Part shown: positions 3,594 through 45,357 of the stretch, piece by piece | Position numbering within the stretch: position 1 is the stretch's first letter | How the letters are laid out: each line of letters starts with the position of its first letter | From: Zygnema cylindricum | Lineage: Eukaryota; Streptophyta; Zygnematophyceae; Zygnematales; Zygnemataceae | Assembly (NCBI GenBank): GCA_037447655.1 | Contig: JBBHKE010001670.1 | Location: forward strand, 1-64,000 | Direction: 5' to 3' | Length of the DNA stretch: 64,000 nt | Position numbers and translations under genes: made by a program | Notes under the pieces: generated by a model | Told to the model about the DNA's origin: nothing | What the model saw: only the letters and a program-made list of their open reading frames with translations | Databases searched by the model: none

Positions 3594-3595
3594 TA

Positions 3596-3794: not shown

Positions 3795-3806
3795 TACAGT
3801 ACAGTA

Positions 3807-4307: not shown

Positions 4308-4794
4308 TACTGTACCATTTAATCCATCGAACAACTGAGTCGCGCGTCACGTGAGAACACTTGACCTTTGTCATTAAAAACAAAAACAAGAAATTAGCCG
4401 CGCGTTACATGAGAACACTTCACCTATGACATTAAAAACGAAAAAAAATACAGTCATATTGTCGTCGTTTGGTGCCGCAGGCGATTTTTTTTTTTTAGTA
4501 CACTACGTGAAATGACGATCATACGCGGAGAGTATAAAAATATCCTACGGTCATCATTGAAGTAGTATTTTGAAAGGAGGAGAAGGTATTTTGAAAGCGG
4601 AGAAGTTATGTATATTTAAATTTTTAAAAGTACAAGACAAATCCGCGTGTACGATTTACTTACTCCAAAATGTGACATTATTTATCGATTTTCATACGGT
4701 CGAAAGTGAAATTCCGTACTTTTCAATGTATATTAACTCTCATCGCGGATGTCCGTACGTGGTAATATTGAATTCCGTACTCTCCAATGTACAC

Positions 4795-4918
4795 CGTGAA
4801 TCCTTATTAGCGTATAGAAATTATTGGTGTGAATAAAGAATTAGTGTCATTTATGCTAAATTGTGTATCGATCCCATTTTCAAAAAAATGTTTAATTGTA
4901 ATTTCTCCATAACGCTGA
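4795..4918. repeat. Fragment of a CACCG-ended repeat
   Basis: Begins with a CACCGTGAATCCTTATTAGC end and matches 14754-14900 through the motif TTTCTCCATAACGCTGATTTA. Only one terminus is present, and the next element follows at once. Confidence 0.55.
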
Positions 4919-4922
4919 TTTA

Positions 4923-5650: not shown

Positions 5651-5851
5651 AAACTAGACTTTTGGACTTTTCGTCCGAACCTTTCGAATTTCCACAACAA
5701 AGAAAATTTATTGAGTAATTTAGAAAGATTCGATTCCGCAGATCATGGAGATAATTTCACCATAGAGGATTTACTCATTTACCCTCGTTTTCGGCGCAAA
5801 TTGTACAATTTGTACAGATGCCTATGTACGCTCAACAAATCATACGATTTA

Positions 5852-6395
5852 GGGTATGGTTACATCAGGAGGTCTCTGTAATAGTACGGACAGCAAAATT
5901 TCTGTATTACAGAGGCCTCGGTTACATCGCGTATCATCTGTAAACAAGTTTTTACATACGTGTTCTAATTTGAGTGATTCCACGTAGGTCGACGATCAAA
6001 TCTATAAAATCGTCAAAGATAAAAAAAAAAAAAATCCCACAGGTTTTCAAAGTCTCGTGACTTCAGACAAAGTGACTTTAAAATCTTTGCCGGAAAAGAA
6101 TATGGTTTTTTCCTGAAAGTCAGCAGAGTGAAGGAGATCTTTAAAGTACATTGACGAGGTACACTTGTGAAGTACATGTACGTCATACGCAGGTACGATT
6201 TTCCAGACTAAAAAGGCCGGTGTCCAGATATTCGATGATTTTTGAGATTTGGTAGTCAACTTTCGTGGAACCACTCATATAAGAACACATATGTAAAACT
6301 TTTTGAAAAAAGATACGCGATGTACGCGAGGCCTCTGTAATACATAAAATTTGTTGTCCGTGCTATTACAGAGACCTCCTCGTGTAACCATACCC
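5852..6395. mobile_element. Foldback MITE H2, 544 bp, long inverted repeats
   Basis: Inverted repeats of about 80 bases begin GGGTATGGTTACA and contain AGGAGGTCTCTGTAATAG. The left flank is TTA and the right flank CAA, so the target duplication is not confirmed. The interior (6025-6360) is repeated in diverged form at 29450-29800. Confidence 0.7.
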
Positions 6396-6589
6396 CAAAT
6401 AATTAATAATTACAATTTCAGAATTAGTATTTTTTTGTCGGTTACATTTTGCGGCGTCTACATTTAAGTTACGAAACGAAAATCACGGTGTACGTGGCGT
6501 ATTAGATAATTTGACATTTTCCCTAAAATAACATACTATATAAAAAAATAAAAAATAAAATTTTAAAAAATACTATATATTGCAATTTA

Positions 6590-6706
6590 TATCGCGATAG
6601 TTTATGTTGGTCTCGGTACGATATATTGAGGATCCTGCTCGATTGATATTCAATATATCAAATATCGAGATAATCGCGATATAAATTTACCCGATACCCA
6701 ACACTA
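6590..6706. mobile_element. Right end of a hAT-like MITE
   Basis: Ends in ACCCGATACCCAACACTA, the same terminal motif as the complete hAT element at 53771-54665. The related repeat near 14998 lacks this sequence before TTTTGGGTTTGCGG, which marks 6706 as an insertion edge. No left end is visible. Confidence 0.45.
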
Positions 6707-14085: not shown

Positions 14086-14752
14086 ATCCTAAATTTTGTA
14101 ACTTTACTCTAAAATGTACACATTGTGACTCTAATTTGTTGACGTTTTGTGAAACATAACCTATTTTAGGGTCAAAGTTAACTCTAATAAGCGTCTCTGT
14201 CGTTTAAAGGTCTGGTATTACCATTATGTTTCATTTTGACCTTGTAATACACTAAATATGTACTCCATCAAGTTCGAAGGATCTCAAATAGAATTAAAAC
14301 GGCAACGTAATAGACTTAACATTCCGCGACTATACGACATGTGTAAGTCTGCGACAGTACGCTTACGCAACATATGTCGTTTATCGCATGTGCACATGTT
14401 ATCTGTTCATATTGCCACCCACAAAAACGAACGTCCGAATTTATGTGAATACGTTTTTCGCAAACCCGTCTCCACTATTTTTCTAAACGCAGATTTGTAT
14501 GTGACCGACCTAAGTTAACCACAATTTCCCTACGAATTCCGGTAACGAAATACACTGCTGTACGCACAAACAACTTTCGTAAACCACATTATTCACAAAA
14601 CAAGTACGGTAAAACCATTGACGCTAATTTATAAGAACCGTAATTAACGTCAAAGATAAATTAGATCCATTCACTGTATTTCGGGTATAAATGTCAAAAT
14701 TTTGGGGTGCCGATATAGCGTACATAAGACTAATAACGATTCACGGTGTAGA
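14086..14752. mobile_element. CACCG-ended repeat R, copy 1
   Basis: Ends ATAACGATTCACGGTG then TA, the same terminus as family M in diverged form. Its body matches 25542-26170 and the flank left of element A (19050-19088). So element A inserted into a second copy of this repeat. Confidence 0.6.
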
Positions 14753-20183: not shown

Positions 20184-23100
20184 CTACCTGCAAAAAATTA
20201 GCTTAGGGAAAGGCACAGGTTTGGTCATCATATCTGCTACCATCTCACTATCCGGTCGGTACTCTAAACTGATTATTTTATTTTCTACTTTCTCTCTAAC
20301 AAAGCTGAGTCTGATGTTCATGTGTTTGGCTTTAAAATGATGTTTAGGATTGGCAGAAATAGCAATTGCTGCCTGATTATCACAAAATATTTTTTGCACA
20401 CCACTCTTAAGATGACCAAGCTCACCATGCAAAGACTTGACCCACATCAAATCTTTTACAGCAGAGCAAGAGGCCATATACTCAGCCTCCAGGGTGGACT
20501 GAGCAATAACCTTTTGCTGTTTGCTACTCCAACAGCAAGCCCCATCACCCACATATAATACATATCCAGAAGTTCATCTCCTCATCGGAGCATCACCATA
20601 ACTGGAATCACTCGAAGTAGTGATGTCAGTATTCTCCCCACCCAAATGCAACCATAGATCCCTAGTTCCTATCAAGTATCTAAGGACTCTCTTAGGTGCC
20701 TCCCAATCCCTCTTAGTGGGAGCATTTAGACTTCTACTCAGCACTCCTACAGCTGCAACTAAATCCGGCAGGGTACAATTCATAAAATAGATTAGACTTC
20801 CCACTACTTGCCTGTAAGGAATAGTCTGCATGAACTTCTGTTCATCAGGAGATAATTCCTCGTCTAAGACTATGACTCCTTCTTCCTCACTCCCCTCACT
20901 TCCCTTCTTCAATTCCATTGGAGTTGTACAACTATTAGCTTTATCCATTTGAAATTTTTCAAGCATGTTCCCTATTGCTTCCTTTTGAGTCAATCTTATA
21001 ATTTTTCTTTTTCGGTCTCTCTCTACTTCAATTCCCAAAATATATTTTGCTTCCCCCATATCCTTCATTTCAAATCTCCCCTTAAGATCGGTTTTCAGTT
21101 TATTAATTTTTTCCATAGATTTACTTAAAACAAGCAAATCATCAACATAAATTGCAATAAATATAAAACCTTCCTCATCTTCGAAAACATAGATTGAGTG
21201 ATCTGAGCTGATCCGGATATATCCCAGACCGGTAAGAAACTCATCAAGCTTCTTATTCCACTGTCGAGGCGCCTGTTTCAAACCATAAAGAGATTTAATC
21301 AGCCGGCATACCTTACTCTCCTCTCTTTCCTCCACAAACCCTTCGGGTTGTCGCATGAAGATCTCAACTTCCAATTCTCCATGCAAAAAGGCTGTTTTGA
21401 TGTCCATCTGGTGCACTTCCATGTCTTTCGCTGCTGCCAGGTTGGGAAGTATGCGGACGGAGGGAAATCTGACCACCGGGGCAAAGGTTTCCTCGTAGTC
21501 AATTCCCTCTTTTTGTGTAAATCCCTTTGCCACTAATCGGGCCTTGTAGCGCTCGATTGTGTTATCTGGGTTCAGTTTTAATTTGAAAACCCACTTACAA
21601 CCGATTGGTTTTCGGTTAGGTGGACAATCCACCAGCTGCGAAGTATCGGCTGCCATAATTGAGGTCATCTCCTCATTGATGGCTGTCTTCCACCGGTTTC
21701 TTTCTGGACAAGTCCTCGCCTCTCCATAAGTTTGAGGTTCATCTTGATGAGATAGTTTAGTTACCTTGTTATTAACGTGTTTTTCTTGCAGTCTTTTGCT
21801 ACTTCTCCTCCCCCCCTCAAAATTTGAGGCTGGAATAGATAGTTTTCGTGGATATTTCGAACAAACTCAGCTTCTCCCCTATCCCTTGATTCCGAATCAA
21901 TTTCCACCACGTCTTCCACTTTGGGTAGAGTTGTTACTGGAGTTTCCACAGCCGAGTCTTTTTCGGTCTGATTTGTACCTGCAAGAATGTCATCGTCTCT
22001 AAAACCCGGATAGTTAGGGAGCTCAAAGTCATCGGAATTTTCTGACTCAAGTCTGATTTTTACTGACTTTGTATATTTGAAGGGATCCACAGACTTTCCT
22101 TCATCCATAACTACTAGATGCTTTACTAGGATTATATCTTTTCTTTTTAGATCATAAACTCTATATCCTTTAACATCCTCATCATATCCTAATAAGTATC
22201 CCGGTTTTCCTTTGGGATCTAGTTCCAATTAGACCAATCAGTATCTAGATTGAATACTTGACTGCCGAAAACCTTTAAATGAGATAAGTCTGGTTTCCGG
22301 CCTGTCCATCTCTCATAAGGTGTTTGATCTTTTATAGCTGAAGTAAGAACTCTATTTTTGAGGTAATTAGCACAGTTCATTGCTTCTGCCCAAAACCTTT
22401 TTCCTATCTTCTTATCCGACAACATACTTCTAACACTATCACTTAGTGTTCTATTTAACCTTTCAGCTACCACATTTTGTTCCGGATTTTTCTGAAACTG
22501 TCTTTTGGTGTTGAACCCCATCTTCCCTCAGAAAATCCTCAAACTAGTTAGAAGTATACTCTCCACCATTGTCACTCCTTACTCTCTTGATTGGAGTTTC
22601 ATGGAGTTTTTCGCTCCATGCTTTATATTGTCTAAAACAATCTTGAGCTTCTGACTTGTTTTTCAAAAAATATACTCGGGAATACCGAGACCAATCATCA
22701 GTTATAGTCCTCATAAATCTCTTCCCCCCAGGTGAGGGCACTCTAGCCGGTCCCCAAATATCTGTGTGTACTAGATCTAGAATTTTTTCTCCCTTATAGG
22801 TGGTTGTTTTAGGAAAGGGTAATCTGTGTGCTTTACCTTGAGCGCATCCACTACAATCACTTATATCATCACTCTCACTGAACTGAATCCCTTCCACCAC
22901 TCCCATCTTTTTCATCTCTCTTAACTTATCTAGATTCACATGCCCAAGCCTCTTATGCCACATCATAATATCATGAACACCAGCATAATAAAGTTTCTTC
23001 GTTTCATTACTTAAGATTAGCCTAAACATCCCATGGCTACCTTTCTCAGCAATGAAATAGACATCCTCCTCAAAACTAGCAGTAAAGACTCCTTCCCTAG

Positions 23101-24510
23101 TGCTAGTGAAAAAACCCTTATCATCTAATATAGATGTAGAAATAAGGTTTTTGTTCAGCTCCGAAATAAACAATACATCAGAGAATGTTAATATGGATGT
23201 CTTTCCTTCTACTAACACTTTCAGATCTACCGATCCTACAAGAGTAGTGGTGACTATCCTCCCATCCCCGTACTCTATCTCTACGGTGGGAATCTTTCTT
23301 ATCTTAGTGAACAGGTGCCTATCCTTACACATGTGCATGGAGGCACCTGAATTTATAATCCAGCCTGCTTCACCTTTCAGTCCACTGTAAGCACATTTCT
23401 GCCTTCGTGGAATTTTAACCTCATTTTTCGCCTCCAACTCCTCATCCAAAAGGAGCTCATTGTCCTCGTCCTTAGATTCCGCCTCAAGTACCTGTGTGAC
23501 AAGGGCCTTTTTCTTTCCTCTCGGGGTACCACTGGTCTGCCCCTCCTTTAACGGAAGCTCGGTTAGCTTAGTGCACTCTGCCATATAGTGCCCCGGTTTC
23601 TTACAAAAATGACATAAACCTTTGGGAGCCCTTGGTTCGAACTCGTCAGCCTATTTTTTCTGCTCCCTACCCCCATAGTTTCCGACTGGTTTCCGGGAAT
23701 CCTTGTTCCTCCAGTCAGTCGCTGTTGCCAAGGCTTGGCCACTCTTTCCTCCCCTTCGGATCTCAATCGTATTCTCTCGAACGAGAATCATCCCTACCAC
23801 TGAGTTCCATATCCACCTTGAGTCTGGCAAATCCTACTTCGGTTGGCTATGTTCTCGAACTCATCGGGTAACTTCATCAGTAAACTGTTAACCTTTTCTT
23901 TTTCACTAAAAACTTTTATCGCACTCTCTAGCTCCATGAAGGGTGTAGCAAGCTCATTGCAAAAATCCAGCATATATCCCCCTTTGTATACATACTCTTT
24001 AACTTTCTGATCAGCCAACTGTTGTTGCTAAATCGTACCACTTCGGTACATCTCTATGAGAGCTATCCAAAGATCGGATGCCCTTTCTACATGCAAATGA
24101 GGACATGCAAGTCCTTGAGTGAGATGGCGTAGGATGAAGTGCTTTGCCGCCATATTGTTGAAATTCGAGGTTTGAGTATCATTCTCCTCGTTCCTCGGAA
24201 TAAGTGACATGAATGCTGAACCAGTTGCTATTGGTGTGGACGTCTCTTTCTTCGCTCCTTTGTCCAACACCTCTCCTTCCTTTGTCTCCTCCGTTGAAGA
24301 AGGACCTGCTTTCTTTGTTAATCTGCTTCCTCCAAACCCTGGAGGAATTCCAAGACTTGATGGGCGCCCCAACCGTCCACTCACTATCCCCCAAAACCTT
24401 TTTTCGCATAGAGCTCCTATCATCATACTTTCCCAGTATATGAAGCCAGTTCCATTAAAGATTGGTACCCTAGAGGGTGGGCCCATAACCTGAAACTGTG
24501 AGACCTCCAT
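20184..24510 (-). pseudogene. gag-pol of element A, disrupted
   Basis: Gag opens MEVSQFQVMGPPSRVP. The zinc knuckle reads CHFCKKPGHYMAEC. The protease motif reads INSGASMHMC, with Asn where the catalytic Asp should be. The integrase zinc-binding part has HKRLGHVN and CSGC, and the core has HTDIWGP, SDNGGEY and the PEQN-AERLNRTL block. RT has FLHGELE, GLKQAPRQW and YVDDLLVLSKS. RNase H has STLEAEYMA and CDNQAAI. Stops include TAG where B has CAG at the gag SGTI-QQQ site, near 23650 and in the integrase near 22540. A TGA precedes TSGYVLYV in RNase H, and there are several one-base frame breaks. Confidence 0.9.
24476..24490 (-). other. Primer-binding site of element A (tRNA-iMet half type)
   Basis: Minus-strand GGTTATGGGCCCACC directly abuts the LTR end TTTCA. 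It complements the anticodon-side half of eukaryotic initiator tRNA-Met. It is also coding: VMGPP of gag reads through it. Confidence 0.75.
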
Positions 24511-25541: not shown

Positions 25542-26172
25542 ATTTACACAATATGACACTAATTTGTTGTCGTTTTGTGAAACATAACCCATTTTAAAGT
25601 CAAACTTAACTCTAATAAGCGTCTATTTCGTTCAATGGTATGGTATTGCCGTTATGTCCACTTTTGACCTTTTAATAGTGTCAACATATACTCTATTAAT
25701 CTCACAAGTTCTCAAATAGAGTTTAAAAGGCACCGTATTACACTTAACATTCTGCGACCATCAACATGTCTAAGTATGAAACACTACGTTTACCTAATAT
25801 AGACAGTTCTTAGCATGTGCATATGTTATCCATTCATAACACGAAAACGAACGTTTGAAGGTATGCGAACGCATATTTTACAAACTCGACTCCGCTATTT
25901 TTGTAAACGCAGATTTGTATGCGACGGACATAAGTTAACCACAATTTCCGTACGGATTTCGACAATGAAGTACACTGTTGTACGACCAAACTAATTCTGT
26001 ACACCACACTATTCACGAAACAAATACAGTAAAACCATTGAAGCAAATTTACAAGAACCGTAATTAACGTCAAAGAGAAATTAGATTAATTCACTGTATT
26101 TCGGGTATTAATGTGAAAATTTTGGGGTGCCGATATAGCGTACATAAAGCTAATAACAATTCACGGTGTACC
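25542..26172. mobile_element. CACCG-ended repeat R, copy 2, interrupted by element A
   Basis: Matches 14110-14752 from ACACAATATGACACTAATTT to the end AATTCACGGTG then TA. The missing left part lies left of element A. Confidence 0.6.
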
Positions 26173-26790
26173 TCTCCACGCGAATTTCATACTCTTTGTA
26201 CTCTCCAGTGTACATTAACCCTCCGCGCAAACTTCGTACACCCAAATGTGAACCAACTTTTTAGTTTGTAGCGCAAATGATTACGTTTCAAAATGTATTA
26301 TTTTGAAACGTAAATAAATATGGACGTACGTTTATCAATTTATTACGAACGCTTTAACCCTAGGTTTTGATTTACGTTTTAACGTATCTAGTGTTAAAAC
26401 CTATAGCTAAATTTTATAACCTAACCCTAAATCCTACAGCCTAACCCTAAATCCTACAGTTTTGTTTTTTCATTTTTGTTTTTTTGTTTTATTTTTTTGT
26501 TTTATTTTTTTTTTCATCCTTTTTATTCTTTTACTTGTTATTCTTTCAACTCCTTTCTTTTTGATAAAATTTTTTAAAGGTTTTTCTTATTATTTTCTTT
26601 TTATTGTGTTTTTTTTTTTCTTTATATTTTTTTTTTTTTCAATGTTTTCTTGGCATAAGGGAATTTTCCAAATTTTACCTAGTTTGTCTTAGGGCTCACA
26701 TTTGGAAACTGTTAAAAAATTGTTCATTTAGAAGGTGACTATAGCAATGTAGGAATAAAAAACCCCCCACAATATAGTCAATGAGATAGA
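26173..26790. other. T-rich stretch, no gene seen
   Basis: Includes CCTAACCCTAAATCCTACAG repeats (26420-26460) and long T runs (26460-26640). This starts an AT-rich block that lasts to about 32400. Confidence 0.5.
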
Positions 26791-27497
26791 GCACGAATCA
26801 TCAGAGATACATTCAAACAACGTTACCCTAGCACAAAACAAGCATATCAAGTTCGTTCAAATTAGTATGAAAAAATTTGGAGTGCACAAAAGCACCCAAA
26901 TGTAGCTATTACACTTGATGGGGTTATTGGACTATTAGAGAATAAAAAAAATAAAAGCTATACCACACTCATACAATGGGTGAAAGAACTCCAAGACTGA
27001 TATAAAAGGCAATTAGCCATAAAAAGGGGGGGGGGGTGAAAATCTTAGAGACAACAATATCATCCAAAAACTGTTACAGGAGTCCAAAAAAAATACATCA
27101 AATTTAAAAAAAAATAACCATGAAGACCGTCAAGAAGGCATACGAGAAGCGTACTCTCTCGAAGATTACAAAGGGTTTTCAACATTTTGGTTGGAGTTGG
27201 CCGAAGGAAAGCACAAAGAAAAAAAGTTGGGGATGGAACCATACACTAGCATTCAAGTGAGGTATGTATCGATAAAAATACTAAATTTTGTATTTATTGT
27301 TTCGATTCATGTTGCTTTTTACTTAACACTTTATTTTATAGGGTGCATTCATTTTGAGTTTTTTATCGGATTTTCTTATTTTAGGGTTTAGATTTTAATT
27401 TTTGACTTTATATTACATTTTTTTTAACATGTTTTTTTGGGATTCAAAAAGTATTTAGAAGTTAACTCCAAAGTCTATTTAAAACAGAGACGAAATT

Positions 27498-27695
27498 TAT
27501 GTGCAATTTTTGTTTTTGGGAGAAAGTATACATTCTTTTAAAATAAAGCTCCAATTATTTTTGTAACATTGTCATTCTTTTTGTTTGTGTTGTTTTGTTA
27601 ATTTTTTTGTTGATGCAATTTTTGTTTTTTGGGAGAAAGTATACATTCTTTTAAAATAAAGCTCCAATTATGTTTGTAATATTGTCATTTTTTGT
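27498..27695 (+). repeat. Tandem duplication inside intron 1 of the Ndc10-like gene
   Basis: Two copies of a unit of about 85 bases contain GGGAGAAAGTATACATTC and AAAATAAAGCTCCAATTAT, starting near 27498 and 27612. Confidence 0.85.
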
Positions 27696-29286
27696 CTCTT
27701 TGGTGTTTTGTTTTTGTTTTTTGTAGGAGTCAATTTATCATGAACCATGCGTGTCTCAGTCGAGGCGATGATTCCAGAAATGCTCAGTTAGCGGATGTTT
27801 TTTCGTATGATCTTCCTTATCTTGGGCCGGACAAGGGTTATGTTTTGGCGATGGTTACAAGAAATGGGAAAACTATTGTGGTAAGTAATCTATAAAAGTG
27901 GAGCTTTAATGAAATGTGTATTTTTATAATGTTTTGTGCATAACCCAAAAACAAATTTTACTAATTCTTTTCAGTTTTTTTATGGTATTTTTTTACCGCA
28001 GAACGGTCGTGCGGAATTTATCGGATGCATGCGTCACTTAGACTTTCTTATTTGTCCAGTAGGTGCTGTGGCCCAACAGTTTTTTTGGAGGTGGGAATTA
28101 GCTACAAATAAAAATATAATTCCCAATTTTTCGACGAAAGAAACTTGGTATGGTGAGCCTTTCACGGAAGGGAGAGTTTTAGCGAAAGACCAAGAAGGAA
28201 AAGAAACACCGTTCATGCAACCTCTTTGCTACAATACACAGTTTCAGTATATAAAAAAAACATTCCAAACCAAAAATGTTTCCTTGTCTCATAAAACCCA
28301 TGCCGGACGTGGTCAAGGAGCAACGATGTTGGCGACAAGAGGGTGCGTTTTTGTAAACTTAACATTTGATTTTTATTCATGCATTTATTTGAAATAAAGA
28401 AGTTTTGTTATTTATGTTGTCGTTTTTGAAATTTTGATTTTTTTTATGGTAAATATTTCAGTGCTGATCGAGAAGCCATCAAAGTGATGGGACGTTGGAC
28501 ATCCGACCACTTCTCATACTCATATATCACGAATTTGCCAACGGACATTCTACTTCAATTTTATGGCCACAAAAACAACACCATAAAATATTTTCTACCT
28601 CGGTGGACCCCCCTACTACTCTTTGTGCTATATTTTGACCGTGGGTCGAAACAGCATATGTTCAGCTGCCATCGGTATGTTTAAAAAAACTCTCACCATT
28701 TATATCATTACTTTTTTGTGTTAAGTAATCTTCGGTGTTTTATGTTCGTCACATTTTCTTTATATTATTTTATTTTTTGTTGTATCATTTGTTTTGATTT
28801 TATTTTTTGTTTTTTGTCTATTTTCGTTTTTATTTGTCTTTTCAATTGTTTTTTTTTCAATTGTTTTTCTGTTTTTATGTTGTTTTTTATATGTTTTAGG
28901 ATAATTTGTTTTTTTCTTTAATTGTTTTTTTTTCTTTCTATTTTTTATCTTTTTTTTTTCCCTTCATTTTTTCTCTCTCTTTGTGACATTTTTTTTGGTT
29001 TATATTTAATAAATTATTCTTCTATTTAAACATACAAATGTTTTTTTGTGCAAAAAAATGCTCGACCTTCTAAATCAGAACGAGATATAAGCGCACAATA
29101 TTTCTCCCACACCATGTTATGGCTTAAAACTGTATTTTTACGGGACCATGTTTTTTTCCAAGATTTATTTCCTGATCTTCCTATCTTCAAGCACAAACTG
29201 TTCCAATCTCTTTTGTGGTCGTCGTTCAAAGACGAAGTCAAAAAAATGTGTCATGAAACATTATACATGTGGGCTTCAGCTGCAAG

Positions 29287-29989
29287 TGTTGGGTATCGAG
29301 GACCATTTGCCGATATTCGATATGCATCAAATTTCAGGTACCCGATAATCGTTATATCGCCTCTATGTATCGAAAAGGTAAATATCGCGATATATTGCCG
29401 ATATATCGGCAGTATATCCTATCGCCAATATATCGAGGCTTTATAAAAAAAATGAAAATTTTCACATGTCTTCAAAGTCACGTGCCTTCGGACAAGGTGA
29501 CTGTAAAATCTTTGCCGAAAAAAAATGGTTTTGGGTTTTTTCGTAAAAGTCAACTGATTGAAGGAGATCTCTAAGGTACATTGACGTGGTACATTTGCGA
29601 AGTACACTTACGCAATACGTAAGTACGGATTTCCATTCGAAAATGGTCGATTTCAAAAATCATTGACAATTTTAGAGATTTGATCGTTAACTTACGTGGA
29701 ACCATTCAGTTCAGAAACACGTATATAAAAATTTGTTTACATAAGCTACGGGATGTAACCGAGGTCTCTGTACTACAAAATTTTTGTTGTCCGTAGTATT
29801 TCGTACAAAAATATTACGTACTATTACGTATAAAAATATAAAAATATTAAATTTAAAAAAATACTATATCGCGATATATATATTACGATGATTTATATTG
29901 GTCCCGATACGATATATTGAGTTTTATGCTTGATCGAAATTCAATATATCAAATATCAAAATTATCGTGATATGAATTTACTCGATTGC
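29287..29989. mobile_element. hAT-like MITE remnant inside exon 5 of the Ndc10-like gene
   Basis: Starts with AAGTGTTGGGTATCG, the hAT-type end, and contains many GATATATCG-type motifs. It ends near TTTACTCGAT, matching the inner side of the right end at 6680-6706, so the outermost right end is lost. Coding resumes directly after it. Confidence 0.6.
29440..29800. mobile_element. H2-type MITE fragment nested in the hAT-like remnant
   Basis: Matches 6025-6360 (shared blocks AAAATCTTTGCCG, GTCAAC and TGAAGGAGATCT), including one end with GAGGTCTCTGTA and TTTTTGTTGTCCGTA. Confidence 0.6.
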
Positions 29990-30708
29990 TTATGGCGAAG
30001 CAAATGTGCCGATTACGATCTCACAAGTGGGAAAATCAAATGATTCGTTATTCATATGGAGTCAAACTTTTGGAAGAATGATTGATTATATGGTAGATGA
30101 AATGTTTAATGTAAAAGAGACACTTTCAAGTTTGAAAGAGAAAATGTGTAATATAGATAATAAGTTAACCCATATTATGCAGGTGATGGACGGTCAAGGA
30201 GAGACGTTGCATGTAAGACAACCTTCTCAAAATCAAAATAAACCATCAGAAGGTGAATCAGCAATAGGAATCGAGACTCCTGAATGTAATATTCCTCGAA
30301 GTGAAGACGAGCGACATGAAACCCAAGTGGAAACGGCAAGAGCAGCTGAGAATTTCCACCTCTTGTTGCTTCACAAAAAAAATCTTATCAAGCTCCTTTG
30401 ATAACTCGAATATGAGCCCGACTTCACACGGTTAAAGATGTGTGGAAAGCATACCGTGATGGTATAGGTGGGCTCCCTTTCATCTCCGATTTGGAATCAA
30501 GTGCACTAGTGGGAGGAAATGAGAATCTCGGAAGTTTTATAATTGGAATGTCATCTTGGAGGAAATTAAAAGAATACTAGAGGTGAATGATGTAACATTA
30601 AGTACGACATTGGGCAGGTTGCAAGATGGCCAATTCGTAAACAAATGGAGTCTGCGCGACATATCAAGGAGATTAGCGACTGAAAACAAAAAAAAAGTTA
30701 AATTGTAG

Positions 30709-32367
30709 TTTGCATGACTTTTTTGGCACTTGTTATTAATGTGTTTTTTTTAGCTTTTGAAACTTTGTAGAAACATATAATGTTTATTTAAGCTAGTTTT
30801 TTTTAGAAATTCAAACTCGAGTAATGCGTTTGCTTATAGTTTTATTATTTTCGGCCCATTATATGTTTATATTTTATTTAGTATAAACCCTAAAATTGCA
30901 TAACTTGTTTTTTTATTTGATAAAAACAGACCTGTAACCTTTAATGTTGTCGAAGTTAATGTTTTTTGTATATTATTTCACAAAATGTCAATTTTAATTA
31001 GTATTCACAAAATAAATTATTCAATATGTGCTGCCTAATGTATTTTCATCATTAAGTTAGATATCGTGTACACACACACTAATTCTATATGTATAATATT
31101 TTATTTTCATTATTTTTATCAACAATTACGTTAGGGGTAAAAGTTTTAGTTAATGTTTTTTGGTTTATATGACAAATACATTAACTGAAACGTTTTGATC
31201 AAACATAATGTTTGATAAATATAATAAAATATCCGACTAAATATTTGACAAAAGGCATGTATAAAAAAAAACCAAATAAGGTATGTGAATTGTTAGTTGT
31301 TGTTTTTGTTTTGTTTTGTAGTATCACAAAACGAAAAATATAAAAAATAATAACTCCCACGATGGATGTTATTGTTTTTCTATCTTACAATGTTTTAAGG
31401 ATATTAAGTTTGATAAACAGAACGACTACATTTTTAATCGACCATGATAGATCAACTATATTTGGTTTGTGTTAAGTTTTAGTTTGGTATATGTAACAAA
31501 CTATAACGTAACACAAACGAAATACAGTTTCTCAATTATGGTCAATAAAAAATGAAGTCGTTATATTTTGTCAAACTTAATAGGTTTGAAATATTGTAAG
31601 ATACAAAAATCATAACATCGGTCATGGGAGTAAAATTCCTACAAATTCTCCTTTTGTGGTACTATGAGAGAAAATAAAAGCAACGGCTAAATATTTTCAT
31701 CGTTTATTTGTTTTTTTTTATAAATGCTTTTTGTCGAATACTTAATCGGATACATCATTTTTTTTATCAGCAATTACATTAGATAAAAAATGTTTAGTTA
31801 ATGTTTTTGGTTTATGTATAACAAACTATAACTTCACATAAACCAAATAGAGTTTCTCTATTATGGTCGATTAAAGATGTAGTGTTATGTTTTTCAATCT
31901 TAATAGGCTTGAAACATTGTAAGACAGCAAAAACGATAGCATCAATCGTGGGAGAAAAATGTGTTCTATTTTTCGTTTTGTGATAGTGTAAAACAAAATA
32001 AAAGCTCGACTAACTATTCTCATCGTTTATTTGGTTTTTTTTTGTTATAAACGCCTTTTGTCCAAGATTTAATCGGATAGCCAATGAATATATTTTTATA
32101 TTTGTGTAATATTATATAAAAATGTTGTATTATATTACGATGAATACATAAGTATTCTGCAATTATAACAATATATTTAATTAAGCAACCCTAAAAATAT
32201 ATTGGCGATGGGGACAAAAAAAAAATTAAAACAACTTTATGGACGTTTACGGCCATTCGACCAGCCAACATCAAATTGAGTGATTAATTACTCTATTTTG
32301 AGTAGTAACGTATCGAGGAGATCGACGATAAAAGCGTAATGGTAACGTAGCGGCTATGAGGAGCACG
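30709..32367. repeat. AT-rich flank with three copies of a roughly 280 bp unit
   Basis: Units at about 31190-31490 (reverse), 31495-31760 (forward) and 31790-32090 (forward) share blocks such as CTTAATAGG-TTGAAA-ATTGTAAGA and CATCGTTTATTTG. No gene was seen. It follows the Ndc10-like gene directly and may belong to the same mobile unit. Confidence 0.5.
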
Positions 32368-32396
32368 TTTTTTTTTTTTTTTTTTTTTTTTTTTTC
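32368..32396. repeat. Poly-T tract
   Basis: About 28 T in a row. It could be the tail of a minus-strand retroposon, but no body was recognised. The AT-rich block ends here. Confidence 0.7.
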
Positions 32397-33344
32397 TGGG
32401 ACGCCTTAGTGCGTTAGTTTTAATATTTGTTTGTTTTAATCGCGCTTTGACATTGCCCGCCGCGAAAGCCCCTATTTATTTGTTTGCCTCCTCGCGTGAG
32501 ACGTCGTACGCCGCCAACTAAAACAAATACCTGATGTAACAGTAATAGAGGGTCAAACTTATTTGTAAATGGAAATTTAGGTGTTACGAATATAGAGTTA
32601 TAAATTTGGTAGACATCCGCGAAAGAATCGCACGATTTAGAGTTGTATTTTAAAAGATATAGCGATTGGTGTATTTAGGCAACAACCCGAGTTTAAAATA
32701 ATGAATGGGTGTTCATTGTAACGGGTTAAGGGTCAAACTAGCTGCGGAATTTCAGGCCCACATTTATAAAGTACCAAATGAATCAATATTATGTTTGGTA
32801 TGCACGATGGTTCGCTTCTTACAATTTTAAGTACAAAACGTCACTTTCACTTTATAGAATTTCATTGGTAGTTTCGCGTGTGAAATTTGTGACGCACTGT
32901 CGAGCGTGCCTAGAAAACATAGGAGAAGGGCCCACCGCCAGAAATAGAGTGCATTGGGGTCTTGGAAATTGGGAGGTTTAGGGGAGATGTCCGAGAAGGT
33001 GTGTATAGAAGACTTGCAATCCACCCCAAATGTTGATGCGGTTTTATGCCCTTCTCTGTCCCTCCCTTCCCCAGGGATATGCATGGGTAATAATGAGGGA
33101 GCGAGTGAAAAGAGGAAAAAGTACCCCGTACCCCCCGAAATTTTGTGCTGATCCGCCGAAAGCCCACTAATAGCTACACTCCTTAATAATATTCAAAGGA
33201 TGGAAAGGTAATGCGAGTCGTCCAATCCGGCCCACAAAAACTCCGGACAGAAACAAAGGACGACCACAAAAGTGAGCAAATAACTCCCACGCAGAAATAT
33301 AGAAACAATAAATATCGGCTCTTTCAATTTAAACAATATCACCT
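32397..33344. other. Unassigned stretch
   Basis: Mixed-composition DNA. Frames of 60-85 codons overlap on both strands near 32780-33170, so none is supported. Confidence 0.4.
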
Positions 33345-35164: not shown

Positions 35165-38100
35165 TCAATATTTCAATTTAGGAGAAGGCACTAGTTTTGT
35201 CATCATGTCAGCCACCATTTCCTCATCAGATTTATATACAAGATTCACAATCTTATTCTCAACTTTTTCCCTCACAAAACTCAATCTTATGTTCATATGC
35301 TTAGCTTTGAAATGATGTTTTGGATTAGCTGCAATTGGAATGTCAACTTGGTTGTCACAAAACACTTCATGCACTCCCTCCTTCATATACCCCAATTCTT
35401 GCAACAAGGACTCGACCCACATCAATTCTTTTAAAGTAGAACAAGAGGCCATCTACTCAACCTCTATAGTAGACTGAGCCACCACCTTTTTTTGCTTTTG
35501 CTCCAACAGCAAGCACTTTCCCCCACGTACAACACATACCCAGAAGTTCATCTTCTGATAGGTGCGTCCCCATAACTAGCATCACTCCAAGTAGTGATGT
35601 CAGTGAGCTCCCCTCCCAAATGGAACCATAACTCTCTGGTTCCCACCAGATATCTCATGACTCTCTTGGTTGCTTCCCAGTCTCTCTTCCTAGGATCATT
35701 AAGACTCTTACTGAGTACTCCAACTGTTGCTGATATGTCCGGCGTAGTACAGTTCATAAAATAGATCAAGCTTCCTACGACTTGTCTAAAAGGGATAGAC
35801 TTCATAAACTCTCTCTCCTCTGAAATCATCTGATCGTCTAAGATCATCACTCCTCCTTCTACACTCCCATCACTTCCTTTTCAAGTCCATGGGAGTGGTA
35901 CCATTGTTAGCCTTTTCCATTTGGAATTTCTCAAGCATATTACCTATTTCTTCTTTCTGAGTAAGTCTGGTAATTTTTTTCCCCCTATTTCTCTCGATTT
36001 GGATCCCCAAAATGTATCTTGCCTCACCTAAATCTTTCATATCAAATCTGCTTTTAAGATCTTCCTTTAGCCTATTAATCTTTTCAAAAGATTTACTCAA
36101 CACAAGCAGATCATCCACATAAATTGCAATAAAAATGACACCATTCTCATCTTCAAACATATAGATAGAATCGTCAGAGCTGATCCGGATGTATCCCAGA
36201 CCAATGAGAAACTCATCTAATTTCTTTTTCCACTGTCGGGGAGCCTGCTTAAGTCCATACAAGGACTTAATGAGCCTGCAGACTTTGCTCTCTTCCCCAT
36301 TCTCCACGAATCCTTGTGGTTGCCACATGAAGATTTCTTCCTCTAATTCACCATTGAGAAATGCGGTCTTAATATCATCTGATGAATTTCCTTGACTTCT
36401 GCTGTGGCTAGACTGAGGAGAATCCTTACTAGTGGGAATCGAACACCTGGAGCAAAAGTCTCCTCATAGTCAATCCCCTCTTTTTGGGTGAACCCCTTTG
36501 CTACTAAACGAATCTTATATCTCACAATAGTATTATCTGGTTTCAGTTTTAGTTTAAACACCCATTTACAGCCGATGAGTTTTTTCTGTCAGGAGAAAAG
36601 TCCGCTAATTCCCAAGTATTTGCTTTCATGATAGAGGCCCTCTCATCATTTATGGCTCTAATCCATCTGTCTTTCTCTGGACTGTTTACTGCCTCCGAGT
36701 ATGACTGAGGTTCATCTGGGTGTGATACCATAGTTACCTTGTGAGCCGCCTGTTTTTCCTGAATCCTTTTGCTTCTCCTTCTCCCCCCCTCAAACTCCGA
36801 GGCTGGGATGAATGGAAGTCTTTGATTTCTCCTTACAGTCTCATCGGCTCCCTTATCCATGGAAGCCGGTTCCGGTCTCTCCTCATATGTCTCCTCGAAG
36901 TCCATAGGAATATGTGACGTTTCCGGAGGATTGCTTGTGTCTTGGATCTCCCCTGAATCAACAATCCATGTTTCACTCATGTCCCTTTCGGGAAGGATGG
37001 AGTCCTCCTCATTTTCAGACTCAAATCTGATTCTTATCATTTTGGTATATTTAAAAGGGTCAAATGATTTCCCTTCATCCATGACAACTAGGTGTTTCAC
37101 CAGAATGATATCTCTCTTTGCTAAGTCATAGACTCTATATCCCTTGACATCCTCATCATATCCTACAATGTATCCGAGTTTTCCCTTAGCATCTAGTTTC
37201 CAGTTTTTCCTATCCGTGTCAAGACTGTAAACTTGGCTACCAAATACTTTAAGGTGGGAGATATCTGATTTCCTTCCCAACCATCTCTCATAAGGTGTCA
37301 TTCCTTTTATTGCTGGGGTAAGGACTGTATTCTTAATGTAGTTAGCACAGTTCATGGCCTCTGCCCAAAATCTCTTTCCAATTTTCTAGTCGGCCAACAT
37401 ACTACATGCACTATCTCCTAGTGTTCCGTTCAACCTCTCTGCTACCGCATTTTGTTCCAGGTTATATGGTACGGTTTTCTTGTGTTGAACTCCCTCATCT
37501 CTCAAGTATTCCTCAAACTAGTTATAGGTATATTCCCCCCCATTTTCACTCCTTATCCTCTTAATGGGGGTTCCATGCAACTTCTCACTCTAAGCTTTGT
37601 ATTATTTGAAGTAAGTTGATGTTTCACACTTTGTTTTTAGGAAGTAGACTCTCGAGTATCTAGACCAGTCATCGGTTATTATCAACATAAACCTCTTTCC
37701 TCCAACAGAAGGCACTTTTGCAGGTCCCCAGATATCTGTGTGGACTAGATCTAGTACCTTCTCTCCTCTATATGTGGCGGCTTTGGGAAGAGGAAGTTTG
37801 TGAGCCTTACCTTGAGCACAACCACTACAATCATTCATCATTTCATTATCCCCAAACTAAATGCCTTCTACTACCCCAAGCTTTTTCATTTCCCTCAACC
37901 TATGAAAATGTACATGCCCCAATCGTTTATGCCAAATCATCAACTTAGGAACAACAATATAGTAAGCATTCTTCTTTAACATTCCTTGGCTACCCTTATC
38001 TGTCGTGAAATAAACTTTATCCCCATACTTAGCTGTAAAGACTCCCTTTCTAGTGAAGGTATCAAACTCTTTGTCATCTAACACAGACGTAGAGACAAGA

Positions 38101-38905
38101 TTTTTACTCAGCTGAGGAATGTAGAGTACATATGAAAATATGAGTATAGAAGTCTTACCCTCTACTTAGACTTTCTGATCTACTGATCCCACTAGATCTG
38201 TAGTAACTACTCTCCCATCCCCATACTCTATTTCTAAAGTAGGGATTTTTCTTAGCTTAGTGAAGAGGTCCTTCTCACGACACATATGCATGGATGCACC
38301 TGAGTCGATGATCCATCCTTCCTGTGGAGCTTCTTGAATTGCACCAAAAGCACACTTCTATCTCCAAAGGATCTCCTTCTCCTCCAGACTCTCGTCAAGA
38401 AGAAGCAGTACTCTCCCATCCTTATACTCTATTTCTAAAGTAGGGATTTTCCTTAGCTTAGTGAAGAGGTCTTTGTCACGACACATATGCATGGATGCAC
38501 CTGAGTCGATAATCCATCCTTTCTGTGGAGCTTCTCGAATTACACTAAAAGCACACTTGTATCTCCAAAGGATCTCCTTCTCCTCCAGACTCTCGTCAAG
38601 AAGAAGCTCCCCATCCTCCTCAGAGGACTCTTCCTCGGTCTCTCCTGTCACCTTTGTGACTAAAAGTTCCTTTTTCTTTCCTCTAGAAGAACCTCCTCCA
38701 TGGTTCTCTTGGAGCCTCAGCTCCGATAGCTTGACACAATCCGCTATTAAGTGTCCCGGCTTTTTTTAAAAATGACATAGGCCCTTTGGGGGCTTCGGTC
38801 CTCAAGGCTGAACTCTTTCTCCTTTGTGTGGTTTTTTTGGGTCCGGTTTCCACCTGTCCCCTCCGACGGCTAAAGCTTGAACGCTCTTTCCTCCTCTCCT
38901 GATTT
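35165..38905 (-). pseudogene. pol and gag C-terminal part of element C
   Basis: Reads zinc knuckle remnant (KPGHLIADC), protease, integrase, RT (YVDDLLVLSKS) and RNase H (CDNQVDIPI) with many stops and frame breaks. The protease segment with IIDSGASMHMC is present twice, in units at 38211-38411 and from 38412 (period 201 bases, in frame). A TAG lies between the copies. The integrase again has TAG where B reads Gln before FEDF, and RNase H has TGA before TSGYV as in element A. Confidence 0.85.
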
Positions 38906-38910
38906 CAATC

Positions 38911-39958
38911 TGAAACTCTGAGACCTCCATAAGTCCTCAGAGTGGACAGCTTCCAAGAAGCCTCTAGGATAATCCTGACCCCTTTGTGTTTAAGCAAAAA
39001 TAACTGCCACCCTGGCAGACAAAAACTCTGACCAACTTCACCCCTGTGAAGACAAGACTCCCCTGAGTCGATAGCAAAAAGAATCTCTGAATTTGCTCCC
39101 GTGAGCAGTAAGTTATGGAGGGTCAAAGTTGACCTTTTGTACAGAAGCTCTCTGGGAGAGGGGGTCCTATCTTCTAATTTTTCTAAGTCCTATCTCTCTC
39201 ACAGACTCTATCTACTGATGTACGGAACCAATCAAAATTGAGTTCCGTACGCAAAAGTACAGCTGCCGGTGTACTTTATGTACGGACATTGTACGACATG
39301 GCCAAAATGTCGACACATTTCAAATCCGGATTCGGTGCCATAATCTCCGGAGATTCCACAATCCAACGGAATTTCGCCACGCGTCATCTGATGTGGCGAT
39401 GGCCACAAACCGCCGAAATCTTCCTCCGCGATCTCGGCGCTAATCCCGGCCGTCCGATTAAATTCGGCTTTAATCGTAGCCGTAATAAATACATGCGCGG
39501 TATTTGTTTCATTTACGAAACAAATGCGCGGTACTGATTTGTGTCCGTACCGTAAGTCGTACATTTATATATTACTGGATCTATGTATCCCGTAATTTAT
39601 TGCAGTTAAATGGTTTATCGCACGTATACATATTTAAATAACTATCAAACTATATGCTATGTAACACTACCTCTAGACTTAACGGCTAAGGCTACCGGCT
39701 AATTATGCTGCCAGCCGGTAGGTACAAGGATCAAATCCTGCCGCCGGCACATACCTTTTAATTAAATAAATAAACCCTAATATAAAATTCCCGTAAACCT
39801 CAGGATAGCCAAGGTAGCCATGGCTCTAGCTTCCTCTCCAATTTCTCAGTGACTGCGACAAGTTTGAGAGTTGGAGAGAGAAGTTAGAGATAGACTGCCT
39901 CGACTTCTATATTTCTTTTCAGACCTAGAAAATACTAATAAAACCATTAGTTTCTACA
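38911..39958 (-). repeat. 3' LTR of element B
   Basis: 1048 bases. The conserved stem-loop is at 39707-39751. Confidence 0.92.
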
Positions 39959-39971
39959 CTCCCCTTATTTT
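39959..39971 (-). other. Polypurine tract of element B
   Basis: Minus-strand AAAATAAGGGGAG directly before the 3' LTR. Confidence 0.85.
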
Positions 39972-42900
39972 CTAGTCAATCTTTAATTTCAGACCACACT
40001 TCTCCCTGCAAAAAATTAGCTTAGGGGAAGGCACAGGTTTGGTCATCATATCTGCTACCATCTCACTATCTGGTCTGTACACTAAACTGATTATTTTGTT
40101 TTCTACTTTCTCTCTAACAAAGCTGAGTCTGATGTCCATGTGTTTGGCTTTAAAATGGTGTTTAGGATTGGCAGAAATAGCGATTGCTGCCTGATTATCA
40201 CAAAATATTTTCTGCACACCACTCTTAAGGTGACCAAGCTCACCAAGCAAAGACTTGACCCACATCAATTCTTTTACAGCAGAGCAAGAGGCCATATACT
40301 CAGCCTCCATGGTGGACTGAGCAATAACCTTTTGCTGTTTGCTACTCCAACAGCAAGCCCCATCACCCACATATAATACATATCCAGAAGTACATCTCCT
40401 CATCGGAGCATCACCATAACTGGCATCACTCCAAGTAGTGATCTCAGTATTCTCCCCACCCAAATGCAACCATAGATCTCTAGTTCCTACCAAGTATCTA
40501 AGGACTCTCTTAGCTGCCTCCCAATCCTTCTTAGTGGGAGCATTTAGACTTCTACTCAGCACTCCTACAGCTGCAGCTAAATGCGGCCGGGTACAATTCA
40601 TAAAATAGATTAGACTTCCCACTACTTGCCTGTAAGGAATAGTCTGCATGAACTTCTGTTCATCAGGAGATAATTCCTCGTCTAAGACTATGACTCCTTC
40701 TTCCTCACTCCCCTCACTTCCCTTCTTCAATTCCATTGGAGTTGTACAACTATTAGCTTTATCCATTTGAAATTTTTCAAGCATGTTCCCTATTGCTTCC
40801 TTTTGAGTCAATCTTATAATTTTTCTTTTTCGGTCTCTCTCTACTTGAATTCCCAAAATATATTTTGCTTCCCCCATATCCTTCATTTCAAATCTCCCCT
40901 TAAGATCGGTTTTCAGTTTATTAATTTTTTCCATTGATTTACTTAAAACAAGCAAATCATCAACATAAATTGCAATAAATATAAAACCTTCCTCATCTTC
41001 GAAAACATAGATTGAGTGATCTGAGCAGATCCGAATATATCCTAGACCGGTAAGAAACTCATCAAGCTTCTTATTCCACTGTCGAGGCGCCTGTTTCAAA
41101 CCATAAAGAGATTTAATCAGCCGGCATACCTTACTCTCCTCTCCTTCTTCCACAAACCCTTCGAGTTGTCGCATGAAGATCTCCTCTTCCAATTCTCCAT
41201 GCAAAAAGGTTGTTTTGATGTCCATCTGGTGCACTTCCATGTCTTCCGCCGCTGCTTAACTGAGAAGTATGCGGACGGAGGGAAATCTGACCACCGGGGC
41301 AAAGGTTTCCTCGTAGTCAATTCCTTCCTTTTGTGTAAATCCCTTTGCCACTAATCTGGCCTTGTAGCGCTCGATTGTGTTATCTGGGTTCAGTTTTAGT
41401 TTGAAAACCCACTTACAACCGATTGGTTTTCGGTTAGGTGGACAGTCCACCAGCTCCCAAGTATCGGCTGCCATGATTGAGGCCATCTCCTCATTGATGG
41501 CTGTCTTCCACCGGTTTCTTTCTGGACAAGTCATCGCCTCTCGATAAGTTTGAGGTTCATCTTGATGAGATAGTTTAGTTACCTTGTTATTAACCTGTTT
41601 TTCTTGCAGTCTTTTGCTACTTCTCCTCCCCCCCTCAAAATCTGAGGCCGGAATAGATGGTTCTCGTGGATTCTTTCGAACAAACTCGGCTTCTCCCCTA
41701 TCCCTTGATTCCGAATGAATTTCCACCACGTCTTCCGCTTCGAGTAGAGTTGTCACTGGAGTTTCCACAGCCGAGTCCTTTTCGGTCTGATTGTTCCTGC
41801 AAGAATGTCATCGTCTCTAAAACCTGGATAGTTAGGAAGCTCAAAGTCATCAGAATTTTCTGACTCAAATCTGATTTTTACTGACTTTGTATATTTGAAG
41901 GGATCCACAGACTTTCCTTCATCCATAACTACTAGATGCTTTGCTAAGATTATATCTTCTCTTTTTAGATCATAAACTCTATATCCTTTAACATCCTCAT
42001 CATATCCTAATAAGTATCCCGGTTTTCCTTTAGGATCTAGCTTCCAATTAGACCGATCTGTATCTAGACTGAATACTTGACTGCCGAAAACCTTTAAATG
42101 AGATAAGTCTGGTTTCCGGCCTGTCCATCTCTCATAAGGTGTTTGATCTTTTATAGCTGAAGTAAGAACTCTATTTTTGAGGTAGTTAGCACAGTTCATT
42201 GCTTCTGCCCAAAACCTTTTTCCTATCTTCTTATCCGACAACATACTTCTAGCACTATCACTTAGTGTTCTATTTAACCTTTCAGCTACCCCATTCTGTT
42301 CCGGATTTTCTGGAACTGTCTTTTGGTGTTGAACCCCATCTTCCCTCAAAAAATCCTCAAACTGGTTAGAAGTATACTCTCCACCATTGTCACTCCTTAC
42401 TCTCTTGATTGGAGTTTCATGGAGTTTTTCGCTCCATGCTTTATATTGTCTAAAACAGTCCTCAGCCTCTGACTTGTTTTTCAAAAAATATACTCGGGAA
42501 TACCGTGACCAATCATCAGTTATAGTCATCATAAATCTCTTCCCCCCCGGTGAGGGCACTCTAGCCGGTCCCCAAATGTCTGTGTGTACTAGATCTAGAA
42601 GTTTTTCTCCCTTGTAGGTGGCTGTTTTTGGAAAGGGTAATCTGTGTGCTTTACCTTGAGCACACCCACTACAATCACTTATATCATCACTCTCACTGAA
42701 CTGAATCCCTTCCACCACTCCCATCTTTTTCATCTCTCTTAACTTATCTAGATTCACATGCCCAAGCCTCTTATGCCACATCATAATATCATGAACACCA
42801 GCATAATAAAGTTTATTCGTTTCATTACTTAAGATCAGCCTAAACATCCCATGGCTACCTTTCTCAGCAATGAAATAGACATCCTCCTGAAAACTAGCAG

Positions 42901-44328
42901 TAAAGACTCCTTCCCTAGTGCTAGTGAAAAAACCCTTATCATCTAATACTGATGTAGAGATAAGGTTTTTGTTCAGCTCCGGAATAAACAATACATCGGA
43001 GAATGTTAATATGGATGTCTTTCCTTTTACTAACACTTTAAGGTCTACCGATCCTACAAGAGTAGTGGTGACTATCCTCCCATCCCCGTACTCTATCTCT
43101 ACGGTGGGAATCTTTCTTATCTTAGTGAACAGGTGTCTATCCTTACACATGTGCATTGAGGCACCTGAATCTATAATCCAGCCTGCTTCACCTTTCAATC
43201 CACCGTAAGCACATTTTTGCCTTCGTGGAATTTCAACCTCAGTTTTCGCCTCCAACTCCTCATCCAAAAGGAGCTCATCGTCCTCGTCCTCGGATTCCGC
43301 CTCAAGTACCTGTGTGACAAGGGCCTTTTTCTTTCCTCTCGGGGTACCACCGGTCTGCCCCTCCTTTAACCGAAGCTCGGTTAGCTTGGTGCACTCTGCC
43401 ATATAGTGCCCCGGTTTCTTACAAAATGACATAAACCTTTGGGAGCCCTTGGTTCGAACTCGCCAACCTGTTTTTTCTGCTCCCTACCCCCATAGTTTCC
43501 GACTGGTTTCCGGGAATCCTTGTTCCTCCAATCGGTCGCTGTTGCCAACGCTTGGCCACTCTTTCCTCCCCTTCGGATCTCAATCGTATTCTCTCGAACG
43601 AGAATCATCCCTACCACTGAGTTCCATATCCACCTTGAGTCCGGCAAGTCCTACACACGGTTGACTATGTTCTCGAACTCATCAGGTAACTTTATTAGTA
43701 AACAGTTAACTTTTTCTTTTTCACTAAAAACTTTACCCGCACTCTCTAGCTCCATGAAGAGTGTAGCAAGCTCATTGCAAAAATCCAACATATTTCCCCC
43801 TTTGTATACATACTCCTTAACTTTCTGATCAGCCAACTGTTGTTGCTGAATCGTACCAATTCGGTACATCTCTATCAGAGCCATCCAAAGATCGGATGCC
43901 CTCTCTACCTGCAAATGAGGACATGCAAGTCCTTGAGTGAGATGGCGTAGGATGAAGTGCTTTGCCGCCATATTGTTGAAGTCCCAGGTTTCAGTATCAT
44001 TCTCCTCGTTCCTCGGAATAGGTGACATGAATGCTAAACCAGTTGTTATTGGTGTGGTCGCCTCTTTCTCCTTTCTTTTGTCCACCACCTCTCCTTCGTT
44101 TGTTTCCTCTGTTGAAGGTGAATCCTCTTTCCTGGTGAATCTGCTTCCTTTAAACCCTGGAGGAATTCCAAGACTTGATGGACGCCCCAATCGTCCACTC
44201 ACTATCCCCCAAAACCTTTTTTCGCATAGAGCTCCTATCATCATACTTTCCCAGTATATGAAGCCAGTTCCATTAAAGATTGGTACCCTAGAGGGTGGGC
44301 CCATAACCTGAAACTCTGAGACCTCCAT
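39972..44328 (-). pseudogene. gag-pol of element B, nearly intact
   Basis: Gag 44328-43651 is open from MEVSEFQVMGPPSRVP to NIVNRV, then TAG. A one-base loss in the zinc knuckle (near 43425) shifts the frame before a 559-codon segment (43432-41753). That segment holds protease IIDSGASMHMC, integrase HTDIWGP, SDNGGEY and PEQNGVAERLNRT. Another one-base loss near 41793 and a TAA near 41253 separate the RT start ([29 protein letters not shown]) from a 422-codon RT and RNase H segment with YVDDLLVLSKS, STMEAEYMA and CDNQAAIAI. The catalytic motifs I could check are all present, unlike in A. No env-like third ORF. Confidence 0.92.
44294..44308 (-). other. Primer-binding site of element B (tRNA-iMet half type)
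   Basis: Minus-strand GGTTATGGGCCCACC directly abuts the LTR and includes a gag ATG. Confidence 0.75.
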
Positions 44329-45357
44329 AAGTCCTCAGAGTGGACAGCTTCCAAGAAGCCTCTAGGATAATCCTGACCCCTTTGTGTTTAAGCAAAAATA
44401 ACTGCCACCCTGGCAGACAAAAACTCTGACCAACTTCACCCCTGTGAAGACAAAACTCCCCTGAGTCGATAGCAAAAAGAATCTCTGAATTTGCTCCCCT
44501 GAGCAGTAAGTTATGGAGGGTCAAAGTTGACCTTTTGTACAGAAGCTCTCTGGGAGAGGGGGTCCTATCTTCTAATTTTTCTAAGTCCTATCTCTCTCAC
44601 AGACTCTATCTACTGATGTACGGAACCAATCAGAATTGAGTTCCGTACGCAAAAGTACAGCTGCCGGTGTACTTTATGTACGGACATTGTACGACATGGC
44701 CAAAATGTCGACACATGTCAAATCCGGATTCGGTGCCATAATCTCCGGAGATTCCACAATCCAACGGAATTTCGCCACGCGTCATCCGATGTGGCGATGG
44801 CCACAAACCGCCGAAATCTTCCTCCGCGATCTCGGCGCTAATCCCGGCCGTCCGATTAAATTCGGCTTTAATCGTAGCCGTAATAAATACATGCGCGGTA
44901 TTTGTTTCATTTACGAAACAAATGCGCGGTACTGATTTGTGTCCGTACCGTAAGTCGTACATTTATATATTACTGGATCTATGTATCCCGTAATTCATTT
45001 CAGTTAAATGGTTTATCGCACGTATACATATTTAAATAACTATCAAACTATATGCTATGTAACACTACCTCTAGACTTAACGGCTAAGGCTACCGGCTAA
45101 TTACTGCTGCCAGCCGGTAGGTTCAAGGATCAAATCCTGCCGCCGGCACATACCTTTTAATTAAATAAATAAACCCTAATATAAAATTCCCGTAAACCTC
45201 AGGATAGCCAAGGTAGCCATGGCTTTAGCTTCCTCTCCAATTTCTCAGTGACTGCGACAAGTTTGAGAGTTGGAGAGAGAAGTTAGAGATAGACTGCCTC
45301 GACTTCTATATTTCTTTTCAGACCTAGAAAATACTAATAAAACCATTAGTTTCTACA
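44309..45357 (-). repeat. 5' LTR of element B
   Basis: 1049 bases, pairs with 38911-39958. Confidence 0.92.

Follow-up and report, generated by a model that had tools for sequence, protein, structure and literature searches.

The 64,000-nucleotide stretch of Zygnema cylindricum DNA that was analyzed here (contig JBBHKE010001670.1 of assembly GCA_037447655.1, hereafter called the window) contains, at 26169-32533 on the forward strand, what is very probably a decayed copy of a dispersed Crypton of the GCR1_C type, a family predicted to encode a single spliced recombinase protein. Cryptons are jumping genes with a site-specific recombinase and have been described above all in fungi, water moulds, and animals. 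The family is dispersed through the genome and has fixed ends (TACCGTAGTGG ... ATACCG); its members lie at pre-existing TACCG sites, with one TACCG on each side. The initial annotation had described an Ndc10-like gene at 26793-30708; this is instead a single member of a transposon family with many scattered copies. The block 26169-32533 is the only part of the window that aligns to other copies (blastn, 19 of 20 fetched loci), and because it coincides with the AT-rich, GTAC-poor stretch, the extent first proposed is too short. The compositional contrast itself was borne out, with a GC fraction of 0.31 and 2.67 GTAC per kilobase (kb) in the block compared with 0.40 and 6.32/kb outside, where 3.6/kb would be expected from base composition. 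It had been taken as a hint of transfer or of a distinct mobile unit; the latter is supported by the dispersed copies and fixed ends, whereas nothing shows a recent fungal transfer.

In the assembly (352.8 Mb in 2,689 contigs), the NDC10_II profile has at least 60 exon matches with an expectation value (E) no higher than 0.001, spread over 44 contigs; 56 of them exceed the cut-off, and two of the 60 lie in the window. GCR1_C has at least 50 matches on 49 contigs, each above its cut-off. The two match lists have 25 contigs in common, and neither family was matched in 14 control genomes. Close relatives of the window exons were found in 19 of the 20 loci that were fetched, the remaining one (L009) being divergent. 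Some loci are incomplete: exon 5 alone is present in L015 and in L012, which is cut by a contig end, L025 and L026 carry exons 1-4 only, and further fetched copies miss individual exons or show frame shifts. The search for full-length copies in the same genome, which the initial annotation had recommended, gave seven copies with both ends, ranging from 6,730 to 7,721 bases. Moreover, the 31-base 5' end has 22 exact copies in the genome, on 21 contigs, compared with 0 for a reversed control. A candidate short non-autonomous pair on contig C719 (L046 and L047, left ends 982 bases apart) was rejected, as 188 bases next to a run of N are repeated there with 100% identity. This double left end probably reflects assembly or masking, and two of the 22 exact ends may be one copy.

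The window gene has three complete introns and one further donor, with GT donors at 27262, 27881, 28343, and 28674 and AG acceptors ending at 27726, 28001, and 28461. These junctions recur in most other copies with placeable exons (in some copies the sites have decayed), in agreement with the clean GT-AG borders and the once-spliced gene that had been read from the window. The NDC10_II domain was likewise confirmed by profile search, as the spliced exons 1-4 (27023-28605) match it with an E of 7.3e-18 (65.1 bits, cut-off 26.3), and the stretch 29030-29338 matches the end of the profile (E 3.1e-7). Searched singly, window exons 1, 2, and 4 matched no family. Spliced proteins were built for two copies, L016 and L014, and are uninterrupted over 758 and 773 residues, respectively, counted from an exon 1 methionine that was chosen and is possibly wrong. 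They match NDC10_II (E 1.2e-38 and 3.2e-41) as well as GCR1_C (E 2.2e-9 and 1.1e-9), whose cut-off is passed at 50 genome places outside the window. Phage_integrase and its N-terminal domain matched both proteins below the cut-off only. With regard to a DIRS-type reverse transcriptase, the forward-strand open reading frames (ORFs) of the L016 element (at least 55 amino acids) were inspected, and the long ones are the recombinase exons. The residues R219, R224, H358, R361, W384, and Y393 (L016 numbering) do not vary among L016 and three metagenomic relatives (P0001-P0003); which of the arginines and tyrosines are catalytic is presumed here from motif spacing. An R-H-R-Y tetrad is described for Crypton recombinases (Kojima and Jurka 2011; PMC3212892, cited throughout from the portion available).

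Past the limits of the window copy, other copies extend to the left by about 0.8 kb and to the right by 0.17 kb, where they end at a common point. The left and right ends as printed are not inverted repeats of each other. TACCG forms the left end in seven of the 10 copies that reach it (the others having GACCG, TATCG, and TAACG) and the right end in 10 of 13 copies (TACCA in the other three); these counts leave out L011 and L027, where the expected left end is not shown. The L017 copy sits inside a repeat, here called X, in the order ATAG, TACCG, element, TACCG, CTGAG. An unoccupied X in the window reads AAAGTACCGTTGAG and has one TACCG, and such a single TACCG is present in three of the four unoccupied X copies (in the window, L028, and L017). 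In L028 and L024, X lies on the left side of the element. A second repeat, Y, harbors the L019 copy. Its joined flanks with one TACCG align near full length, at 93-98% identity, to 40 of the 42 places listed in a search with 1,921 candidates, 40 of which were scored, and the four unoccupied Y sites that were read are all GTTAG-TACCG-TGTCA. Since TACCG is single at empty sites and stands at both ends of occupied ones, it predates the insertion, and one TACCG before with one on both sides after is the trace expected of a circle recombining with a matching core site.

An excised circle has been proposed for Cryptons (PMC3212892). In the Zygnema element, the recombinase would excise the element as a circle by recombining the two TACCG ends; the circle would carry one TACCG, with the junction ATACCGTAGTGG, and could recombine into another genomic TACCG. 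The GCR1_C domain and the GC-rich ends may hold the protein on the element DNA.

Several observations weigh against such an account. Six of the 23 counted ends are one letter off TACCG, and the fourth unoccupied X (in L011) reads TACCT. In L021 the right flank is X but the left flank has no match to X, and the left end is GACCG; this copy is rearranged or no clean insertion. In the window itself the GCR1_C stretch, whose frame is broken, stays below the cut-off (E 0.076, 13.7 bits vs 23); the domain named in the initial annotation passes it clearly in L016 and L014. Solved structures, searched by sequence, included none with an E under 1. Furthermore, the divergent L009 has phenylalanine at both the histidine and the tyrosine position, which means that an active recombinase cannot be expected from every copy; judged by these residues, L009 is unlikely to be one, and it is a decayed copy or perhaps a domesticated one. 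(In L009, on contig C623, the NDC10_II relative lies at about 2796-5672 of the locus, on its reverse strand.) Finally, the circle, the transcript, and the transposition are predictions from sequence.

Seven copies were compared for selection. Between L016 and L014 the nonsynonymous divergence (dN) is 0.017 and the synonymous divergence (dS) 0.332, giving a ratio of 0.05 over 286 codons, and the window copy and L016 differ with a dN of 0.024 and a dS of 0.116 (ratio 0.21). Decayed pairs lie near or above 1 (L016-L018 1.02, L014-L026 1.61, L025-L026 0.96), high ratios that stem partly from shifted exon 1 frames in L018 and L026. This pattern indicates that selection has kept the gene along active lineages while single copies decay. 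Some pairs are 98.5% identical over 3.2 kb (L016-L015) or 97.7% identical over 3.9 kb (L021-L012), which speaks for recent movement, and in at least some copies the gene appears to have stayed open until recent times.

A further family with GCR1_C is represented by L037, L038, and L039 (contigs C531, C673, and C1544), whose long last exons are proline/serine-rich and open over 366-623 codons. The recombinase exons of L039 and L009 are, piecewise, 33-39% and 38-52% identical to those of L016, respectively. The position of intron 2 is common to L016, L009, and L039, and intron 3 and the last intron are common to L016 and L039, with GT-AG borders; L039 has one extra intron within the exon 3 region. 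That families so divergent share intron positions points to a long residence. It also bears on a recent horizontal transfer, in which a single fungal Ndc10/Crypton gene would stand as a foreign gene in a plant. Such a transfer would fit the AT-rich, GTAC-poor block and the record of these families from fungi and oomycetes (PMC3212892). It is nevertheless very unlikely in view of the dozens of copies, the shared introns of families that are 33-52% identical piecewise, the dS of 0.33 with a dN/dS of 0.05 between two subfamilies, and the distance of the best relative (29% identity in 5.8 billion proteins, among which fungal genomes may be few).

An Ndc10-like gene domesticated by the host for a cellular role has also been considered, as Ndc10/Cbf2 and Gcr1 descend from CryptonF (PMC3212892) and two of the copies have an open gene under strong constraint. 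Cbf2 and Gcr1 lost the catalytic site (PMC3212892), whereas the Zygnema sequences are multicopy, have fixed ends, and seem to keep the catalytic residues, and the window copy is broken. Domestication is therefore extremely unlikely, and a mobile Crypton family is the preferred explanation.

Relatives of this family were also sought outside the genome. The L016 protein retrieved three relatives (P0001-P0003, 26-29% identical) from the 5.8 billion proteins, and a query with an alignment returned the same three. The window exons alone had no match in the protein set at an E of 0.001, and no relatives were found in phages (tblastn with exon 3), viral contigs, or bacterial and archaeal genome contigs.

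The initial annotation had held that the host is a plant and the block no contaminant, and this conclusion stands. In the assembly, SBP has seven matches, located at four loci, and GRAS has 27, spread over 12 contigs, many of the GRAS matches being split as by introns. Within the green plants, from which SBP is known, GRAS is known from land plants and zygnematophycean algae; the host is thus taken as a streptophyte. Contig C1030 bears a GRAS gene as well as an unoccupied copy of repeat Y, which ties the target repeats of the element to the plant genome. A misjoined or contaminating fungal or oomycete contig would agree with the recombinase family being known from those groups. With copies on many contigs, an unoccupied X in the window itself, an unoccupied Y on the GRAS-bearing contig, and SBP genes in the same assembly, this explanation is hardly credible.

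The copy in the window is presumably dead (the features are listed in Table 1). Both element ends are missing, exon 1 has in-frame stops, the reading frame of exon 4 is broken near its end by comparison with L016, the last-intron acceptor is a dinucleotide other than AG, and exon 5 has a nested insert as well as a frame change inside the GCR1_C stretch. Because its ends are lost, it carries a nested insertion, and several frames are broken, it can hardly make a protein any more. As for the miniature inverted-repeat transposable elements that had been proposed inside the block, a dispersed repeat is indeed present at 29279-29981, parts of which recur in the window at 5880-6690 and 53772-53898, in L027 (1327-1671), and in L016 (8682-9001), but no clean target duplication was seen around it. 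Another dispersed repeat (window 26000-26171) adjoins the left limit of the copy and is also found at 14580-14750 and 56918-57009 and in L022 (8085-8177); it may have replaced the 5' end.

Table 1. Features of the Crypton copy and of an empty target repeat in the window
Feature	Position	Strand	Remarks
Truncated, broken Crypton copy	26169-32533	+	Full copies run ~0.8 kb (5') and 0.17 kb (3') past the part aligned here
Exon 1 remnant, recombinase N-terminal part	26642-27261	+	Stops inside; open in L016 and L014; donor GT at 27262; start placed by analogy with the methionine picked in L016
Intron 1, GT-AG, with 113-bp tandem duplication	27262-27726	+	
Exon 2, LSRGDDSRNAQLAD, with conserved recombinase arginines	27727-27880	+	
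Intron 2, GT-AG	27881-28001	+	Position common to two divergent families (L009, L039)
Exon 3, NDC10_II core with KTHAGRGQG (H-x-x-R)	28002-28342	+	NDC10_II E 4.5e-7 alone
Intron 3, GT-AG	28343-28461	+	Position and phase as in L039
Exon 4, MGRWTSDHFSYSY, with putative catalytic tyrosine	28462-28673	+	Frame broken near end
Exon 5 remnant, first part (NDC10_II end)	29054-29278	+	Preceding intron ends non-AG; NDC10_II match of 29030-29338
Nested dispersed-repeat insert	29279-29981		Absent from 16 copies with alignment spanning the point
Exon 5 remnant, second part: linker and GCR1_C region (30428-30708) in two frames	29982-30708	+	
3' part without recognized coding sequence, common to other copies	30709-32533	+	Direct and inverted repeats at about 31105-32079
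Unoccupied target repeat X	63596-63995	+	TACCG at 63736-63740 is the element position in L017

Elsewhere in the window, Ty1/copia elements or pieces lie on the minus strand at 20574-23650 and 35870-44334. Four ORFs of these regions were scanned and gave RVT_2, rve, gag_pre-integrs, and copia gag; all four are present in 39972-44334, in several frames. At about 49.95-50.95 kb a long CT/GA simple repeat comes after a run of N, and scans of the window with Rfam (gathering scores) and for tRNAs gave nothing.

Beyond this one copy, the evidence leans toward green plants hosting their own old and recently mobile lineage of GCR1_C-type Cryptons, with several families, shared intron positions, one family at TACCG, and some full recombinases. 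If so, a third eukaryotic group would join the hosts of CryptonF-type elements, and plants would supply a natural recombinase whose target core is five letters long. A multicopy family in a streptophyte, with defined ends, empty sites, and uninterrupted copies, broadens the range of hosts and allows a direct test of how the element integrates. For genome annotation, it follows that NDC10_II or GCR1_C matches in plants need not mean contamination or centromere genes.

CryptonF has been reported in both fungi and oomycetes (Kojima and Jurka 2011, PMC3212892). The available portion of that main Crypton survey names no plant CryptonF, and its tree includes one Chlamydomonas sequence. A plant review calls Cryptons relatively rare among eukaryotes in the section available (PMC11630846), and the word Crypton does not occur in the accessible part of PMC8226300. 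No report of a plant CryptonF was recognized in the open-access literature from titles and the beginnings of abstracts; an earlier record may exist outside it, for instance in Repbase.

Among the known systems, the metagenomic relatives resemble the Zygnema protein in that P0001 and P0002 have NDC10_II and GCR1_C, P0003 has NDC10_II, and KTHAGRGQGA is identical in all three; they differ in having no introns at the intron 2 and 3 positions and lie on short contigs. Cbf2/Ndc10 and Gcr1 of budding yeasts contain the same Pfam domains but are host genes without a recombinase active site, unlike the multicopy element described here. CryptonS elements (oomycetes and a diatom) have 5- or 6-bp repeats, mostly with TATGG ends (PMC3212892), and are without GCR1_C, which L016 and L014 are predicted to carry at the C-terminus. 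CryptonF is the closest counterpart, an assignment made by domains and ends against published descriptions. As in CryptonF, the Zygnema family combines a tyrosine recombinase domain containing a presumed R-H-R-Y tetrad, a GCR1_C domain behind it, short (4-6 bp) terminal direct repeats without terminal inverted repeats, and dispersed copies. The first Cryptons had direct repeats of 4 or 6 bp and most CryptonF elements have 6 bp (PMC3212892), whereas the Zygnema element differs in its 5-bp TACCG, its four-intron gene, and its green-plant host.

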